Part shown: positions 8,161 through 28,486 of the stretch, piece after piece
How the letters are laid out: each line of letters opens with the position of its first letter
Numbering within the stretch: the stretch's first letter is position 1
Source of the DNA: a virus
Reading direction: 5' to 3' (one strand)
Virus record (IMG/VR): IMGVR_UViG_3300031773_000025
Span: 1 to 29,430 of that record
Length of the DNA: 29,430 nucleotides
Translations under genes and position numbers: made by a program
The notes under the pieces: generated by a model
The model's database searches: none
What the model was told of the DNA's origin: nothing
The model's input: the letters and a program-made list of their open reading frames with translations, nothing else

Positions 8161-10617
8161 TTATCTTGGCTCAAATTCAGCAAGGTCAAACCCATCTAAA
8201 CTATCTTCATTGGATTCAAAACTAACTGATGGTAAATTGTTTTTTCTTTGTTCTATAAGTTTTGATTGTTCTGTATTCGCTTGAGATATTCTAGCAGACT
8301 TAGCATTCTCTCTTTCATTTTCTCTTTTTTTCAAACCTTCTTGCTCCATTTTTTTCATATCGATATCCACTCCTTTTAATTTCATTTGAAGTGAAAACTC
8401 AAGATTCATAAGCTCAGCCTTTATTGAGGCTTCACCTTGCATTTTTTTAACTGCAAATTCAGCTTTAGCTTGTTCTAGCTGTATAGCCGCTTGATTTTCC
8501 ATTTGGAATTGCTGCATCTTAGATTGTGCAGCCATTTGCTGTGACTGTTGATTTATTTGAGCTTGCTGTTGAGCAGCAGCAGCTTTTTCTTTTTGAACTC
8601 TATCCTGCTTTGCTACTCTTTTTAATTTAAGTATTTGATTAGCTAACTTTAAGTTTCTTATCTCACGTATATCAATAGCATCTTCTAAGTTTATAGAATC
8701 TCTCTGCAATGCCATTTGAATGTTTTGTTCAAGCATTTTTCTTTCTTCTTCGTCAGGCTCAATTTCTATAAATATTCCAAAGTCACTCAAATATAATTTA
8801 CTTATTTCTTCAAGTAATCCAACATTAAATTTTCCAATCTGATTAACAAATTCTTCTCTAAATTCTGAATATTCTATTACATCCGCAATTCTACTAGATA
8901 ATGCTGTACAAAGTCTTTGACTCATTTGAAGACCTGCGTCTAAAATATGTCTTGTAGCTGTATTACTACTTAATGCAGCTAGTTTTTGTAATCCCACCAA
9001 AGAATATGAATCAGGAGTTGAGCCATCTCTAGCTTCATTTAATCCAGTTACATCTCTTAGCATTTGCATATAATGATTATATGAACCAACTAAGCTTTGT
9101 ATTTTACCTTGTCCTGAATTACTATTTAATTGTTGAATTGGTACTTTTGCTTGATTGTAATCTCCATCTTGAGTATAGCTTCTACCAATAACAGAACCTG
9201 TTTGAAAAAACATTCGTAATGCATCTTCAGGATTATAGGCTTGTCCTGTTCCTAGGTCTACTTCATTTAATCCATCAGCATCTATAAAAACACCATCAGG
9301 TACTACCCTAGATATTACTTGTTGTAATTTTAAATGTGTTATTTGAATTAAATCAGCAAACGTAATCATACGTCTTGTTAAAGATTCAAAAACACCTTTA
9401 TACATTCTAGGTGCGCATGCTATATATTCAGGATAAACTTCTTGAGATGCAGACTGTGGTCTAGCCATGTTTTCAGCCATTCTCCACTTTAATAAAATGT
9501 TTGTTCCCATTACCATTACACCCTCATACCAAACATCTATAGTCTTAGAAACTTTTTTAAAGTTTCCTTCTTCCTGCATTTCCTGAGTAGGGTCAAACGT
9601 ATCTTCTTTTTCTATTACTTTTTCTGCTCCAGATGAATTTACTTTTTTCTTGTAAGTAAACGTATGTGTTGTTTTATAATTAAAAAACAAAACAGTAGCG
9701 CTATCTTTACTAAATAAACTATTATTGTAATATTGAGCTGTATTATTGTAGTCATACCAACTTTGACTATACTTAGATATTTCATCCATATCCTGTCTTG
9801 TCAAACTCGTATCAATTTTTTTCAATTCAGTTATTGGTAATGTTTTAATTTCACCCCAATAAAAACAATCTTCAAAATGAGGATCTTCGGTATAACTATA
9901 AACAACATTAGCAGGGTCTACATATTCAATTGAAATTCCTGCTCCTGGCTTAAATGTATTTTTACACATTGAAACACCTAATACAGTTTGATCGTAGTAC
10001 AACTGTTTTTGTATTTCGTAATATCTATTTTCAGAAAGTAATGTATTTATTGCTTCTTCTTCTGCTATTTCAATTGAAGGTTTATACTTCAACTGCATAT
10101 GTAATGCTAATTCTTCTGAAGTATTAGGAACATCTTCTTCTGACGTAGCAAATGTATTTATTCCTAGTTGCTGCTGTACCTGTTTCATAACAGGTTTTGC
10201 TAGCATATCTTTTTCTAAATTTACTTGGTATTCACTTCTTTTATCTAAAGACATTCCGTCTTGAGCATAAGCTTTTATCTTGAATACTCTATCAGCCATT
10301 CCATTTACAACAATGTCTACAAATTTTGGAATAATAGGCACAGGAGTCCAGTCAAGATTAAGATAACTTAAATCGCCATCTATAGCAAGTTCGTTCTTGT
10401 ATTTTTGTATTGACTGCTCACCACGAGCATATAGTCTCAATCTATGGAAGTCTGCCCATTGATTGTAGAATCTACTTTGTCCACCATCTTTTCTGAACCA
10501 TTCATATTGAATAGCTTGTCCTATTTGTAATCCAAACTCAAAGGAATCCTTTTCTTTGTCTGAAACAAATTGACTAGGAAAACCTGTGGGATTTAACGTG
10601 ATTTTTACATCCTCCAT
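8161..10617 (-). CDS. Portal protein
   Basis: This 818-aa protein directly follows the large terminase (ATG one base after the terminase stop). Residues ~55-110 (RLYARGEQSIQKYKNE, WTPVPIIPKFVDIVVNGMAD) match what I remember of crAss-like and Bacteroidota podovirus portals. The middle has the helical wing/stem region (residues ~405-620, with MITFADLIQITHLKLQQVIS and the TGLNEARDGSTPDSYSLVG loop). The C-terminal ~150 residues form a very long Gln/Glu/Lys-rich coiled coil (QQQAQINQQSQQMAAQSKMQ and following), which would build the portal barrel inside the head. The length is large for a portal but normal for a barrel-containing one. It forms the dodecameric DNA entry and exit channel. Confidence 0.85.
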   Translation of the reverse strand: MEDVKITLNPTGFPSQFVSDKEKDSFEFGLQIGQAIQYEWFRKDGGQSRFYNQWADFHRLRLYARGEQSIQKYKNELAIDGDLSYLNLDWTPVPIIPKFVDIVVNGMADRVFKIKAYAQDGMSLDKRSEYQVNLEKDMLAKPVMKQVQQQLGINTFATSEEDVPNTSEELALHMQLKYKPSIEIAEEEAINTLLSENRYYEIQKQLYYDQTVLGVSMCKNTFKPGAGISIEYVDPANVVYSYTEDPHFEDCFYWGEIKTLPITELKKIDTSLTRQDMDEISKYSQSWYDYNNTAQYYNNSLFSKDSATVLFFNYKTTHTFTYKKKVNSSGAEKVIEKEDTFDPTQEMQEEGNFKKVSKTIDVWYEGVMVMGTNILLKWRMAENMARPQSASQEVYPEYIACAPRMYKGVFESLTRRMITFADLIQITHLKLQQVISRVVPDGVFIDADGLNEVDLGTGQAYNPEDALRMFFQTGSVIGRSYTQDGDYNQAKVPIQQLNSNSGQGKIQSLVGSYNHYMQMLRDVTGLNEARDGSTPDSYSLVGLQKLAALSSNTATRHILDAGLQMSQRLCTALSSRIADVIEYSEFREEFVNQIGKFNVGLLEEISKLYLSDFGIFIEIEPDEEERKMLEQNIQMALQRDSINLEDAIDIREIRNLKLANQILKLKRVAKQDRVQKEKAAAAQQQAQINQQSQQMAAQSKMQQFQMENQAAIQLEQAKAEFAVKKMQGEASIKAELMNLEFSLQMKLKGVDIDMKKMEQEGLKKRENERENAKSARISQANTEQSKLIEQRKNNLPSVSFESNEDSLDGFDLAEFEPR

Positions 10618-12843
10618 TTATTGTATAATTTGGCTATAACTTCCCTTATTGTCGTATCTTGCAAAGTTAAGTTTTATTTTTGATTTCTTTTTAATGGGCT
10701 GATAAAGGTTCTTTTGCGTTGCCATAATAGCTAAGCCAGAACTTATTGACGCATCAAACTTAGTTCTGTTGTTAATGTTAAACCTTGCCCAGTCTTCTAA
10801 CGTTCTAATAAAATACATAGAACCTATTAAATCTGATTCCCTAAATGTGCCTGACATATCAAAACCTACGTGCTTTTCTATATACGACTCTATAGCTGCT
10901 GCGTGTGCTTGTTTTACGTCTTCTGAACTGTTAGGTATTCCTCCTAATTCTTTTTCTGTTTTTGATAATTTAGTATAAATTTTATCAGGCCTGTTCATAC
11001 TAAAGCCTCTGTATCCTCTATTTTTAAAATGATATAATAAACGAGGTTTATTGTTTTCTATTAAAATTGGCATTCCATAAAATACGCAAGCCATAAGAAC
11101 ATCTTCAAAAAATATTTCTGCAGTTTGAGGCCTAGCAATGTATTCTAAAAAAAACTCACTAGTTGGGCCTTCATCCATATGAAACTTAGTCATTCCATGC
11201 AAAGCTCCGTTAGAACCACCACCACCTACTGTTCCTGATATATCGTAGCTATCACAACCAAACGCTCCCATATGGTCATTGCTTGGATATTTAACTCCGT
11301 TTTTATAATAATATTTGTTTTGTAATTGCTTGTTAGGAGTCCAAGAAACATAAAATCTACCTCTATCATTTGGTGAAAAAATAACTTCTGTATCTTGAAC
11401 GCCATTTTTCCAACTAAAAGAACCTCTCGTAACAAACCTATCTTTTATTAAAGAATCATTGTAATCTATCTGCTGATAAATTTTTTGTAAATTAAATAAT
11501 GATTGCTTGCTTTCATCTCTAAATGCATGAGACTCTGTTCTAGGAAATTGTCTATAATATTCGTTTAATCCATCAGGATCAGACTTTAAACCTTCTACTT
11601 CATTATTCCAATGATTGATGACACCCTCATCTATTACGTCTCCAAATGGCCCTTCTAAATCTTCTTTCGGCTCATCAAATACAGGATACCCATAAACATC
11701 TATAAATCCTTCATAATTCCATTCCATAGGGATGAAAAGTGAATATAGTCCACTTTTGGTTTGACCATTCTTGTTTCGTTTTCCCACATCGGAATCTGTA
11801 TATAATTTTTTAAAGTTACCCCCACCCTTTTCTATTGAGTTAGATGTGCTTCCCATCATACATTTTCCGATAATTCTAGAACCTAATCTTAAACAAGTTT
11901 TTGTAACCCTCCAATTATTTAATATGTTATCAGGTCTTTCCCATTTCCCACTTTCATCGTGAGCAAGTATTTTTAATTTTTCTCCATCGTACGAGTTGTC
12001 CCCTGTGTTTTTCCAGTCAATCGTGGTGTCAAGACCTTCGAGTTCCTCAACGGCTTGATTTGCATCAAGTTTCTTTCTGGTGAGTTTTGAGGCAGGGACT
12101 CTATAGGCAAGCTCCGTCTTCGGCCTGTCCATACCGTCCTGGATGGGCTTGAAGAAGAAGGGATAGTTAAGTGATATGGGAACGACCTTATCGGTGAACA
12201 TCTTCTTAGCATCCGACCCTGTCTTTGACAATATGCCAAAACGTGAGTCACGTGAGGTGGTTGCTGCATGCACGAGTTCTGATGAGGACATAAACGAAAA
12301 GCCTGAACGCCTGTTTTTAAGATAGCACATTCCGTATGAACGAATGTCTGCTTTGCATGCCTCCCAAAATAAATAGAATAATCTATTGGACTCTCTAAAG
12401 TTTGGCTGCCCAACATCAATTTTGGTCCAGCACAAGTACATGTAATGAGAGCCAGTAATATAAGTAGGAACATTTTTGTTATAAAACCAAAACCCTTCTT
12501 CACGTCTTTCAAATTCTTTATCAATATAGTCATACCATTTTTCTTTAAAAGTATCAGGATATTTATCCCAATCAAACACGTTTTTTATTTTACTTAACTC
12601 TTTAGGATATTCTAATTTATCCCAATAATTATTTTTAAAACTATGAACATCTTTTACTTTTGGTAAGGCTATTCGTAATTTTTGTATTTCATATACATCA
12701 CCAATTGTGCCGTCTTTTGAAATAATAATAATGTCATATTCTTTATTATATCCATACTTCCATGCTTTCTTTTTATTGTAAGAATTCAATACCTTTTCAG
12801 GCACAACATTTTCAAGTATTTTATATAAAGTTTGTGTATACAT
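10618..12843 (-). CDS. terL: Terminase large subunit (packaging ATPase/nuclease)
   Basis: This 741-aa protein drives genome packaging. Before the ATPase domain lies VPTYITGSHYMYLCWTKI and YLFWEACKADIRSYGMCYLK, a layout I know from Bacteroidota phage terminases. The P-loop region is KNRRSGFSF (residues 176-184), in which the usual Lys of GK[ST] is Phe182. The Walker B motif is LKILAHDE with D296 and E297. The coupling segment CMMGSTSN follows. The nuclease domain begins at GAFGCDSYD (D531, D534), continues with the PILIENN strand, and ends near D715 in the FDASISS helix. Its start overlaps the upstream stop as TAATG. An internal segment of about 360 bp differs sharply in GC content and codon use (see separate entry). 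Confidence 0.9.
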   Translation of the reverse strand: MYTQTLYKILENVVPEKVLNSYNKKKAWKYGYNKEYDIIIISKDGTIGDVYEIQKLRIALPKVKDVHSFKNNYWDKLEYPKELSKIKNVFDWDKYPDTFKEKWYDYIDKEFERREEGFWFYNKNVPTYITGSHYMYLCWTKIDVGQPNFRESNRLFYLFWEACKADIRSYGMCYLKNRRSGFSFMSSSELVHAATTSRDSRFGILSKTGSDAKKMFTDKVVPISLNYPFFFKPIQDGMDRPKTELAYRVPASKLTRKKLDANQAVEELEGLDTTIDWKNTGDNSYDGEKLKILAHDESGKWERPDNILNNWRVTKTCLRLGSRIIGKCMMGSTSNSIEKGGGNFKKLYTDSDVGKRNKNGQTKSGLYSLFIPMEWNYEGFIDVYGYPVFDEPKEDLEGPFGDVIDEGVINHWNNEVEGLKSDPDGLNEYYRQFPRTESHAFRDESKQSLFNLQKIYQQIDYNDSLIKDRFVTRGSFSWKNGVQDTEVIFSPNDRGRFYVSWTPNKQLQNKYYYKNGVKYPSNDHMGAFGCDSYDISGTVGGGGSNGALHGMTKFHMDEGPTSEFFLEYIARPQTAEIFFEDVLMACVFYGMPILIENNKPRLLYHFKNRGYRGFSMNRPDKIYTKLSKTEKELGGIPNSSEDVKQAHAAAIESYIEKHVGFDMSGTFRESDLIGSMYFIRTLEDWARFNINNRTKFDASISSGLAIMATQKNLYQPIKKKSKIKLNFARYDNKGSYSQIIQ
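11985..12350. other. GC-rich, foreign-looking segment inside terL
   Basis: Counting by 60-base lines, GC is about 43-52% from 12001 to 12360, against roughly 23-38% in the flanking terL lines. On the coding strand the codons change to GTC, CTC, TTC, AAG, ACC and CCG, while flanking codons are mainly AAA, TTT, TTA and GAA. The segment covers residues ~165-285, that is, the P-loop region and the sequence before Walker B. The reading frame is intact. It looks like a recombined or gene-converted patch from a higher-GC relative. Confidence 0.75.
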
Positions 12844-13130
12844 TATTTTGACCTACCTTCTGCAAAGCCTTTAAATAGCGCTGCTTTTGTTTCTACGTTT
12901 TCTGTATTAATCATATTGTTTTCTTCTTCAATTTTAGATAAAATTTCAAAAGCGTCAAATATAGCTAACTTCTTAGAAGCCGCTGCGTTCTTTAATCTAT
13001 CTGCTGCAATATCAGGAGCTAATCCATCTAGGTCTTTTTTTAATATACCTTCGTTAGCAACTTTTATAAGCTCTTTTACAGCTTTTTTTCCTGCTTTAAT
13101 TATTTCTAATTTTAATTCTATATTATTCAT
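12843..13130 (-). CDS. Small helical protein upstream of terL (possible small terminase)
   Basis: This 95-aa protein appears all-helical (LKLEIIKAGKKAVKELIKVA, KKLAIFDAFEILSKIEEENN). It ends in TAATG, overlapping the terL start, and its own ATG overlaps the stop of the gene before it, so it is translationally coupled on both sides. A small helical protein directly before terL is the classic place of the small terminase subunit, but no helix-turn-helix is obvious. I treat that role as a hypothesis only. Confidence 0.55.
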   Translation of the reverse strand: MNNIELKLEIIKAGKKAVKELIKVANEGILKKDLDGLAPDIAADRLKNAAASKKLAIFDAFEILSKIEEENNMINTENVETKAALFKGFAEGRSK

Positions 13131-13690
13131 GAAACCATTGTTATGTTATTAGTAAACATTCTGTATAATTTTTCGCCATCTAAATTATACTCATATTCGC
13201 TATCAGGTTGAAAATAAACTTTATCACCTACATTAACTCCTTTTTCTATTAAAGAATCATTAGTATATTTAATTAAACCTGCTAAAGGTTCTTCGTCTTG
13301 ATGTGTTTTAAGGTAATTGTTTTTTTTAGGTAAAGGTTTTACCATGCAGTATTTTGAGTGGCATGACCAAGTGTCTTTACTTTTAAACATAAAAAATTGA
13401 TCGAAATCAATAAAAAACAAATTATCTTTAAAAAAACTCTTTCCACTTCTCTCTACTCCTTTCATGTCATTATAATATTTAAAAACATTATGATGAACTA
13501 AAAGTGTGTCTCCTATTTTAATAGGGCCTGAATAGTTTATTGGTGTTTCAACAACTATTGCATATCTATTTGATACGGTATGATCTTCTTTTGATGTGCT
13601 TGTTATAAAATTAACATTCCCAATCTTTTTAGTATTATCATACCTTTTGTCATTGCTTGGTTTTACAATGAAATAAAAAGGTGATTTCAT
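13127..13690 (-). CDS. Putative tandem GroES-like double-barrel protein
   Basis: The 187-aa protein reads as two copies of one pattern, each similar to the layout of GroES. Copy one has YFIVKPS (residues ~6-12), then NRYAIVVETP, then IKIGDTLLVHHNVF (residues ~58-71), and ends with LFFIDFDQFFMF. Copy two has YCMVKPLP (residues ~114-121), AGLIKYTNDS, VNVGDKVYFQPDSEYEY (residues ~149-165), and ends with LYRMFTNNITMV. GroES shows the same series: a first strand, GEVLAVG, VKVGDIVIF, then a closing ESDILAIV strand. Two tandem GroES-like domains would parallel chloroplast Cpn20. The mobile-loop IVL/ILL motif is not evident, so it may be a structural barrel and not a co-chaperonin. It overlaps its neighbours by 4 bases on each side. 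Confidence 0.5.
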   Translation of the reverse strand: MKSPFYFIVKPSNDKRYDNTKKIGNVNFITSTSKEDHTVSNRYAIVVETPINYSGPIKIGDTLLVHHNVFKYYNDMKGVERSGKSFFKDNLFFIDFDQFFMFKSKDTWSCHSKYCMVKPLPKKNNYLKTHQDEEPLAGLIKYTNDSLIEKGVNVGDKVYFQPDSEYEYNLDGEKLYRMFTNNITMVS

Positions 13691-13917
13691 TCAAAATTTA
13701 TATTATATTCGATTGATATTGGCATATTTGAATTAAACTCTTTCCAAAGAAATATTTCTCCTTGTTTGTTTTCAATCCATATTTTTATTGAATCATTTTC
13801 AGATACATATTTTATTAAATGTATAATATAATTTGCATTTAAAATTTCTTGATTTACAATATAGTGCATTGCACTCGATTTATAGTCTGCTCCGACTGAT
13901 ATTTTTCTTATATCCAT
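13687..13917 (-). CDS. Small protein of unknown function
   Basis: This 76-aa protein starts MDIRKISVGADYKSSAMHYI and continues with alternating beta-like segments (NDSIKIWIENKQGEIFLW). I recall similar short proteins next to the packaging genes of marine Bacteroidota phages, with no known role. Its stop overlaps the next start by 4 bases (ATGA), which places it in the same co-translated group as the terminase genes. No catalytic or membrane feature is visible. Confidence 0.55.
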   Translation of the reverse strand: MDIRKISVGADYKSSAMHYIVNQEILNANYIIHLIKYVSENDSIKIWIENKQGEIFLWKEFNSNMPISIEYNINFE

Positions 13918-26618: not shown

Positions 26619-26876
26619 TTAGAGAACTACTACAATATCTCTTTCATATATAATTGTAACTACCTCTTCTTCTAACATCATCTTGTGACCTGCGTTTTTA
26701 TCATAATAAATAACGTCACCTTCAGATACTACAGACACTTCAGTCCCTGGAATCTTTATCAAACCTTTTTTGTACCTTAGCAAGTTACTGTCGTCAGACG
26801 TTAGTAAAATACCTGACTCAGTTTTCTGCTGTTCTTTGATTTCTGTAATTACAATGTATTTACCTATTGCTTTCAT
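26619..26876 (-). CDS. groES: Co-chaperonin GroES
   Basis: From the ATG at 26876 the protein has 85 residues and aligns over its whole length with GroES: MKAIGKYIVITEI corresponds to the first strand, ESGILLTSDD to the mobile loop that contacts GroEL, VSEGDVIYYDKNAG to the VGDxVIF strand, and TIIYERDIVVVL to the final strand. A longer frame starts at 26924 with 16 extra residues (MNHWLAEGKEILKKRK) and overlaps the groEL stop as ATGA, so translational coupling from there is possible. I prefer 26876 because it fits the family start and is preceded by an A-rich tract. It is somewhat shorter than the usual ~97 residues. It caps the GroEL ring and forms the folding chamber. Confidence 0.88.
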   Translation of the reverse strand: MKAIGKYIVITEIKEQQKTESGILLTSDDSNLLRYKKGLIKIPGTEVSVVSEGDVIYYDKNAGHKMMLEEEVVTIIYERDIVVVL

Positions 26877-26920
26877 TTTTCTTTTTTTTAAAATCTCTTT
26901 ACCTTCTGCTAACCAATGAT

Positions 26921-28486
26921 TCATTTTCTTTTCATTGTTACGATTGCATTAGTACTTAATATTGTTGTCGCTACACTTACTGCATTTTTCAACGCATTCT
27001 TTGTAACTTTTGCAGGATCTATAACTCCCATCTTGTACATGTCGCCAAAAACTTTATTTTTTACGTCATATCCAAAATTATGTGGAGCATCTGCACAACT
27101 ACAAATTTTATCTCTAATTTCTTTTATGTTTTCACCTGCATTTGTAAGTATCTGCTCTAGTGGTGAAATCAAAGCTCCATACATAACGTCATTTGAGTCT
27201 CCGTCTCCTAGTTTTTCTGCACATCTCAAAAGAGCTACCCCTCCTCCTGGAAGAATTCCTTCTTCAATCGCTGATTTAACTGCACATACTGCATCTTCTA
27301 CACGATCATACTTTTCTTTCTGCTCAATATCAGAATCAGCTCCAACATAAATCACACCTACAGCTCCTGACAACAATGCAATACGTTCGGTAATGAAATC
27401 TCTTTCTTTCTTGTCCTTATTGTTTTCTTTCTGAACTTTCAACTCAGAAATTCTAGACTTAGCATCTTGAACTTCGTCATTCATAATTACAGTTCCATCT
27501 TTTCCTACAATAATTTTATCAGCATGTCCTAAATCTTCCATTGTCAACATCCCAATGTTGTCGCCCTGCGACTCGCTGAAATATTTTGCACCTATTGCCA
27601 AAGCAATATCACTCATCAGTTCATTTGTTTTGTAACCAAACGATGGTGGTATAATATTACAGAGCTTTAAATTATTCTGAACTACATTCGCTGCTAATGT
27701 GTTTGTCACATTTTGAGAACAGTTCCCAATCACCAAGAGTTTTTTGTTTTGGTTTATTATCGGCTTTAATATATTTTCAATCTGAAGTATATTGGTAATC
27801 TCCATGTCCGTCATTAAAACATATACATCATCTAGTATACATTCATCGTTTCTGTGATTATTAATAAACAGCTTTGAAGAATATCCTCTGTCAATCTTAA
27901 TTCCTTTAGTTACCTCGTAGTATGTTTTGTCTGTCTTACTATTTTCTACTGTAAGTATTCCGTCTTTACCTAACTCTTTGTACGCACTAGCAATCATCTT
28001 TCCTAAAACAGGATCGTTGTTTGCAGATATTGTAGCAACATCACGTAATGTTTTACCAGTTACTTTTTTTGATAAACTGCTTAATGATTTTATTACCTCA
28101 TCTGAATGAGACTTGATATCTCTAATTAATTGTGTGGTATTTATTTCAGGGTTTCTCTGAATCAATTGCATACCTTCCTTGACAATAGCTTCGGTAAGTA
28201 CAATAGCCGTAGTTGTTCCGTCTCCTGCTGAGGTTGCCGTTCGGTCTGCAGCTTCTTTCATCATAGTAATTGCTAGATTCTCTACCGAGTCTTCTAAGTC
28301 AATTGATTTAGCTACAGTCACACCGTCTTTTGTAATTGTAATTCCTCCTCTGTGGTTTGGTGATTCTATTAATACTGTTTTGCCGAGTGGCCCTAATGTA
28401 CTTTTGACAGCTGTTGAAATTTTAGTTATTCCATTTAGCAACTTGTCTCTTCCTTCCTGGTCGAAAGATAATTCTTTTGGATTCAT
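26921..28486 (-). CDS. groEL: Chaperonin GroEL (phage-encoded)
   Basis: This 521-aa protein covers the whole GroEL fold. The equatorial ATP site has KSTLGPLGKTV (residues ~29-38), D54 in ITKDGVTVA and D89 in GDGTTT. The ATP-hydrolysis aspartate is D398 in RVEDAV, the same number as in E. coli, followed by GGGVALLR. The apical domain (residues ~190-375) is divergent from the bacterial one, and the C-terminus ends TMKRK without the Gly-Gly-Met tail. This set suggests an active ATPase ring with altered substrate binding. It lies upstream of groES, the reverse of the usual bacterial order. A TATATTTG -7 box and a repeat array lie in front of it. Its likely clients are capsid or fibre proteins. 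Confidence 0.95.
   Translation of the reverse strand: MNPKELSFDQEGRDKLLNGITKISTAVKSTLGPLGKTVLIESPNHRGGITITKDGVTVAKSIDLEDSVENLAITMMKEAADRTATSAGDGTTTAIVLTEAIVKEGMQLIQRNPEINTTQLIRDIKSHSDEVIKSLSSLSKKVTGKTLRDVATISANNDPVLGKMIASAYKELGKDGILTVENSKTDKTYYEVTKGIKIDRGYSSKLFINNHRNDECILDDVYVLMTDMEITNILQIENILKPIINQNKKLLVIGNCSQNVTNTLAANVVQNNLKLCNIIPPSFGYKTNELMSDIALAIGAKYFSESQGDNIGMLTMEDLGHADKIIVGKDGTVIMNDEVQDAKSRISELKVQKENNKDKKERDFITERIALLSGAVGVIYVGADSDIEQKEKYDRVEDAVCAVKSAIEEGILPGGGVALLRCAEKLGDGDSNDVMYGALISPLEQILTNAGENIKEIRDKICSCADAPHNFGYDVKNKVFGDMYKMGVIDPAKVTKNALKNAVSVATTILSTNAIVTMKRK

Follow-up and report, generated by a model that had tools for sequence, protein, structure and literature searches.

A predicted tandem GroES-like protein encoded close to the terminase gene in phages of marine Bacteroidota

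The tandem gene and its surroundings

The stretch of DNA analyzed here (the window) is itself a virus record of 29,430 bases, in which a protein of 187 amino acids (aa) resembling two GroES domains in tandem is encoded on the minus strand at 13127-13690 (ATG start, stop codon included). It matches PHROG 13932, a family named 'co-chaperonin GroES', over residues 1-184 (E 6.2e-23). An earlier note, made from the sequence alone, had placed the open reading frame (ORF) at exactly these coordinates and beside the terminase genes, and both statements are borne out. Along the minus strand, the gene order is a 76-aa ORF (13687-13917), the tandem gene, a 95-aa ORF (12843-13130), the terminase large subunit gene (TerL; 10618-12843; PHROG 6681, E 1.2e-169), which is the second gene downstream of the tandem gene, and the portal gene (8161-10617; PHROG 6547, E 4.2e-147). 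Because the tandem gene overlaps both small ORFs by 4 bases, and TerL and the portal gene follow the 95-aa ORF, the gene seems to belong to a packaging operon. Homologs of the two small ORFs are present in many of the related loci that were fetched. When the 95-aa ORF was compared with two targets by hmmsearch --max, it weakly matched the N-terminal extension of the phi38:1 TerL (L085; domain E 2.5e-4) and gave no match to an elemovirus TerL. On the strength of the weak phi38:1 match, this ORF may correspond to a terminase part that is split off or fused.

The phage also encodes GroEL and a single-domain GroES about 13 kb from the tandem gene, as had been recognized before. The single GroES (26619-26924, minus strand; Pfam Cpn10, E 3.6e-9, 37 bits, above the cut-off) has a GILLT mobile loop and is given here with its longest start, its relatives starting 16 codons later. 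It adjoins GroEL (26921-28486, minus strand; PHROG 5725, E 2.6e-129; Pfam Cpn60, E 1e-56).

Within the tandem protein, all of whose features lie on the minus strand, domain 1 comprises residues 1 to about 106 (13373-13690) and is assigned as a GroES-type barrel by predicted fold, whereas domain 2, from about residue 107 to 187 (13130-13372), is assigned as a GroES homolog by profile. A mobile-loop-like stretch with the core [LFI][IV]x[NS] at residues 28-31 is found in domain 1 (residues 24-36, 13583-13621), and the corresponding loop position of domain 2 (residues 121-134, 13289-13330) is degenerate here and GroES-like in some relatives. Domain 1 also contains a near-invariant triplet, His66-His67-Asn68 (13487-13495).

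Profile and fold evidence for the two domains

Profile comparison identifies domain 2 (residues 107-187) as a GroES homolog. Its hhalign probabilities against GroES profiles were 96.9-98.0% over nearly the entire length, with E-values of 1.5e-10 to 1.8e-13 in single comparisons (1.5e-10 against the profile of the same phage's single GroES), and the controls, profiles of 11 unrelated families and two GroES profiles that had been reversed, did not exceed a probability of 2.1%. A search of the PDB with a 32-member profile (a hand-picked alignment of the window's protein and 31 of 46 translated loci) detected GroES 8wux at positions 115-186 with an E-value of 1.2e-4; an unrelated designed alphaRep chain reached 0.0019 in the same search, so little weight attaches to its weak matches. 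Pfam Cpn10 (PF00166) matched the window's protein in domain 2 only and with 16 bits, below the cut-off of 21.1; it exceeded the cut-off for domain 2 in four of the ten members scanned (L107, L109, L110, and L111) and matched 14 of the 32 members at E<=0.1. Other Pfam names that came up weakly in relatives, such as connectase and thioesterase, were below their cut-offs and were dropped.

Domain 1 appears GroES-like only by predicted fold. A model of this domain by itself was built from 68 domain 1 sequences (pLDDT 86.4). With this model, the first 13 rows of the Foldseek search were all Cpn10-type chains (best E 0.02, probability 0.98), and the first 16 PDB entries reported by VIA were Cpn10, GroES, T4 gp31, or Cpn20 with Z values of 5.4-7.2. 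The 34 entries ranked after these had Z values of at most 4.7 and were mostly dehydrogenases or reductases, enzymes in which a GroES-like domain is known. Since Z values below 8 are in a range that can reflect a merely common arrangement, which counts against a co-chaperonin reading, the case for this fold rests on rank and unanimity rather than on the size of the scores.

An attempt to prove two domains from sequence alone failed. When domain 1 was compared with GroES in hhalign, the probability was only 3-25%, with most alignments in the correct register, and the comparison with domain 2 stayed within the same range, none of these values being significant; raw scores against GroES were 18.2-24.1, compared with at most 13.6 for reversed controls and with 19.2 for one unrelated family, which overlaps. 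The two segments that had been read as the clearest repeats, IKIGDTLLVHH (residues 57-67) and VNVGDKVYFQP (152-162), are indeed present; a direct internal repeat was no better than chance, 63 of 500 shuffles scoring as high in a Smith-Waterman comparison of domain 1 with domain 2. Across the 70 family members remaining after thinning at 80% identity (nr80; the window's row is its copy L081), this inter-domain comparison had a mean Z of 0.41 and exceeded 2 in four members, as compared to two members, with a maximum of 3.4, in the reversed control. In one distant member (L248), an in-register repeat spans the loop and the GD strand, and only 28 of 100,000 shuffles scored as high; corrected for the 70 members tested (about 0.02), this is suggestive only.

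The AlphaFold model of the whole protein (pLDDT 78.7, pTM 0.75) is predicted to contain both domains, and its best PDB match is a 194-residue chain of Chlamydomonas, 7ekq chain R, named 'Cpn20 co-chaperonin subunit' in the sequence library. Foldseek gave an E-value of 3.3e-5 and TM scores of 0.57/0.55 for this pair, and VIA gave a Z of 11.1 with an rmsd of 3.7 over 160 residues, spanning residues 1-187 of the model; the large rmsd of the Foldseek alignment (6.3, at TM 0.57) speaks against the co-chaperonin reading. A parallel with chloroplast Cpn20, which had been proposed from the sequence, is upheld by predicted fold for both domains, and of the two tandem barrels proposed along with it, domain 2 stands by profile and domain 1 by fold only, while the sequence repeat does not. 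The check proposed with it, made with hhalign and Foldseek instead of HHpred and DALI, gave neither a fold lacking two GroES-type barrels nor matches confined to an unrelated family. The pLDDT falls below 50 over three or more consecutive residues only at 28-39 and 125-131, where the mobile loop lies in GroES. In addition, a model of phi18:3 cpn10 that others had predicted, available in BFVD, matched over the whole length (TM 0.81/0.76). A further match came from another BFVD entry, a viral protein of 304 residues (A0A516L046; TM 0.76 by query and 0.50 by target), in which there is perhaps an additional domain or a third barrel.

Distribution of the family and its chaperonin partners

The tandem family has many members among phages of marine Bacteroidota. 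A search of the phage collection with the tandem protein gave 83 matching records when the threshold was E<=0.1 and 85 when it was E<=10; these 85 comprise 68 Flavobacterium phages, 15 Cellulophaga phages, one Maribacter phage (Panino), and MW202828 (Manatee Spring), whose protein is 60% identical and annotated as hypothetical. As the 68 Flavobacterium records all come from one host strain, few independent named lineages are represented. The TerL of the window was matched in 87 records of the collection, and the difference from the tandem count by organism is two Tenacibaculum records. Among IMG/VR viruses, at least 591 relatives were confirmed for one query and at least 531 for another, and 80 of each were retained. 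Fifteen loci belong to bacterial or archaeal genome contigs, all of them titled as metagenome bins, and these may be phage contigs that were binned with cells.

A total of 226 family ORFs (173 distinct) were collected, of which 163 distinct sequences of 165-230 aa were retained and 10 shorter ones were dropped; only ATG was accepted as a start, which shortens genes that use other starts. L083 and L217 (an X) were left out of one of the family alignments. The family is under purifying selection: of 21 pairs of close relatives, 19 had a finite dS, and in these dN/dS was 0.07-0.23, with dS exceeding 1 in many.

The position of the gene is highly conserved. The family ORF was present in 215 of the 216 related loci fetched (all except L123; a few loci, e.g., L109 and L241, are one contig fetched twice), and after ten loci with less than 1.2 kb of downstream sequence were set aside, TerL lay downstream on the same strand in all 205 testable loci. 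It was recognized as an ORF start in 170 of them and by tblastn, 184-843 bases downstream, in the other 35, whose TerL ORF is cut by the end of the contig.

A separate single GroES was found in 25 and GroEL in 24 of the 34 distinct virus records searched, several of which are fragments and none of which is rated complete. Seven named phage records were searched in full, and six had the tandem gene; all six also had a single GroES and five had GroEL, which was not found in the whole phi18:3 record, alone among these phages. The seventh, Tenacibaculum phage Gundel_1 (NC_062747.1), which is one of the two Tenacibaculum records matched by TerL, gave no match to the tandem gene, GroES, or GroEL in its whole record, possibly reflecting a natural loss of the entire set. 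Gundel_1 shares a TerL clade with the tandem phages.

The earlier statement that no such phage protein had been described was too strong, given that PHROG 13932 exists and that a cpn10 or GroES label is attached to family members in phi18:3 (gp096), Calle_1 (Calle1_13), Panino, and the elemoviruses. These members match over the full length and occupy the same site before TerL; what differs is the label, which is plain cpn10/GroES or hypothetical, and none of the annotated records examined mentions two domains. In the portions of the open-licence PMC literature that were searched, no phage protein is described as having two GroES domains either. Excerpts of PMC8776804 list 'Chaperonin cpn10' as a core protein of Pervagoviridae, in wording that does not distinguish the single from the tandem gene, and phages of this family have both. 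GroEL and GroES of phage Panino are noted in the consulted part of PMC11590407, and a co-chaperonin GroES is among the genomic-island genes in that of PMC6487183. Annotation could hence be corrected, from a plain cpn10 or hypothetical protein to a two-domain protein tied to DNA-packaging genes.

Possible functions of the tandem protein

The only other tandem GroES proteins known to us are those of plastids and apicoplasts, and how a lid with an even number of domains fits a seven-fold chamber there is still puzzling. The phage protein resembles Cpn20 (7ekq_R; apicoplast cpn20) in having two head-to-tail GroES barrels and a similar length (187 vs. 194 residues), but the two share only 14-15% identity, the phage gene is located in a packaging block, the mobile loop of its domain 2 is mostly unrecognizable, and its binding to GroEL is inferred only. 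As the family profile matched 7ekq_R with an E-value of 1.3 and in the second domain only, independent fusion appears to be the simpler reading. A single-domain GroES is encoded alongside the tandem protein, as chloroplasts have Cpn10 and Cpn20; according to the available sections of PMC5780408, plastids operate the two together, and lids of six or eight GroES domains still function. T4 gp31, which ranked high in the fold searches with each domain, is likewise a phage co-chaperonin, whereas it is a single barrel with a chain of 107 residues that, in the same sections, adapts GroEL to its client, the capsid protein gp23 (PMC5780408). The single GroES of the same phage shares the fold, and its profile is matched by domain 2, but it has one domain, a GILLT loop, and a gene beside GroEL.

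On these analogies (gp31 with gp23, and plastid Cpn10 with Cpn20), the tandem protein would cap GroEL alone or in a mixed lid and would serve head proteins. We consider it fairly probable that it is a dedicated Cpn20-like co-chaperonin that caps GroEL, with head and packaging proteins as its clients, the latter being suggested by its place in the terminase-portal block; marine phages with this gene probably carry a second, unusual GroEL lid. Several tandem chains, perhaps together with the phage single GroES, would form a dome over GroEL, either the phage's own or that of the host where the phage has none, and the mobile loop of domain 1 would be inserted into GroEL, joined in some lineages by that of domain 2. 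GroEL binding, the make-up of the ring, and the clients are all drawn from comparison with these known systems. In the part of PMC13288928 that was available, GroEL of phi38:1 is among the methylated proteins of infected cells and free virions, which indicates that a phage chaperonin is made during infection there.

A more specific form of this proposal can be put forward tentatively, in which three tandem chains and one single GroES provide seven domains (2+2+2+1) with specialized, non-identical positions. Domain 1 and the single GroES would mainly grip GroEL and leave domain 2 free for another task, and such a lid would meet the seven-fold symmetry in the way that plastid Cpn20/Cpn10 hetero-oligomers are thought to do. 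If true, these phages would have arrived on their own at a system like Cpn10/Cpn20, used specifically for virion assembly. The phages could offer a bacterial system with cultured hosts (Cellulophaga and Flavobacterium) for studying lids of mixed composition, the reason why domains are fused, and the commitment of a lid to particular clients.

Alternatively, the GroES fold may have been repurposed as a head-assembly or packaging factor that acts on the terminase, portal, or procapsid and does not serve GroEL, which we regard as unlikely, although several observations fit it. The site before TerL often holds the small terminase, and the conserved gene order (205 of 205 loci) is compatible with this role as well as with a co-chaperonin; the distance of the tandem gene from groEL and groES, together with its closeness to TerL, also fits a non-chaperonin role and counts against the co-chaperonin reading. 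The same is true of the domain 2 loop, whose pattern is missing in 59 of the 70 nr80 members, including the window's protein. The near-invariant triplet directly after the GD strand of domain 1 (His66, His67, and Asn68 in 69, 68, and 70 of the 70 members, respectively), which to our knowledge is not a GroES hallmark and could possibly contact a metal or a client, would suit a repurposed barrel too. On the other hand, domain 1 has retained a mobile-loop-like hydrophobic core: residues 28 and 29 are both I, L, V, M, or F in 66 of the 70 members, 69 members have N or S at position 31, and examples such as GLILN, SLIVN, and NFITS can be compared with the GroES loops GILLT and GIIIP. The co-occurrence with the single GroES and GroEL, all three being absent together in Gundel_1, also argues against repurposing, as does the phi18:3 record, which marks the proteins found by MS/MS and leaves gp096 unmarked, though its TerL is unmarked too.

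The loop pattern of domain 2, which was defined here by ourselves and missed L246, whose loop resembles the others, was observed in 11 nr80 members, eight of them in the phi38:1, L252, L109, and phi18:3 lineages (NGLEV, GSIIV, and SLIYI) and three in the window's lineage; among the latter, the match in L023 is probably due to chance. The loops most similar to those of cellular GroES belong to the phi18:3 and L109 lineages, in whose records GroEL was not found, two lineages being too few for a test. It is quite improbable, in our judgment, that the protein is a modulator of the host chaperonin, occupying host GroEL or poisoning the host GroES ring so as to favor phage clients or block host folding. 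This would agree with the record of phi18:3 and those taken as phi13:2 and phi19:3, in which both GroES genes were present and GroEL was not found, so that only host GroEL would be available, and with the domain 2 loop of phi18:3, SLIYIPEDNKEK, which resembles cellular GroES loops such as GIIIPDTAKEK; however, GroEL is encoded by 24 of the 34 virus records themselves, and the tandem gene lies in the head block. Finally, a reading in which only domain 2 is GroES, with domain 1 a small beta domain unrelated to it that AlphaFold shapes into a barrel, is very improbable, since, despite the non-significant domain 1 profiles and the chance-level internal repeat in this protein, the model built from domain 1 sequences alone ranked Cpn10-type chains above all others, L248 has an in-register repeat, and the independently predicted BFVD model of phi18:3 cpn10 matched throughout.

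The lineage of L127, whose family gene is at 10001-10546 of that locus, showed two further features. Residues 90-129 of the L127 protein, across the domain border, matched UPF0300 (E 1.1e-4; 22 bits vs. a cut-off of 25), and a weak match was also seen in L130 (E 0.063); the L127 match is unexplained and counts against the co-chaperonin reading. In many members of this lineage, the C-terminus is extended by a conserved tail, about 20 residues long and ending like EYNPSWAKSS (e.g., L168:3808-3867 and L129:1251-1310); this tail is absent from the window's protein and could be a docking motif.
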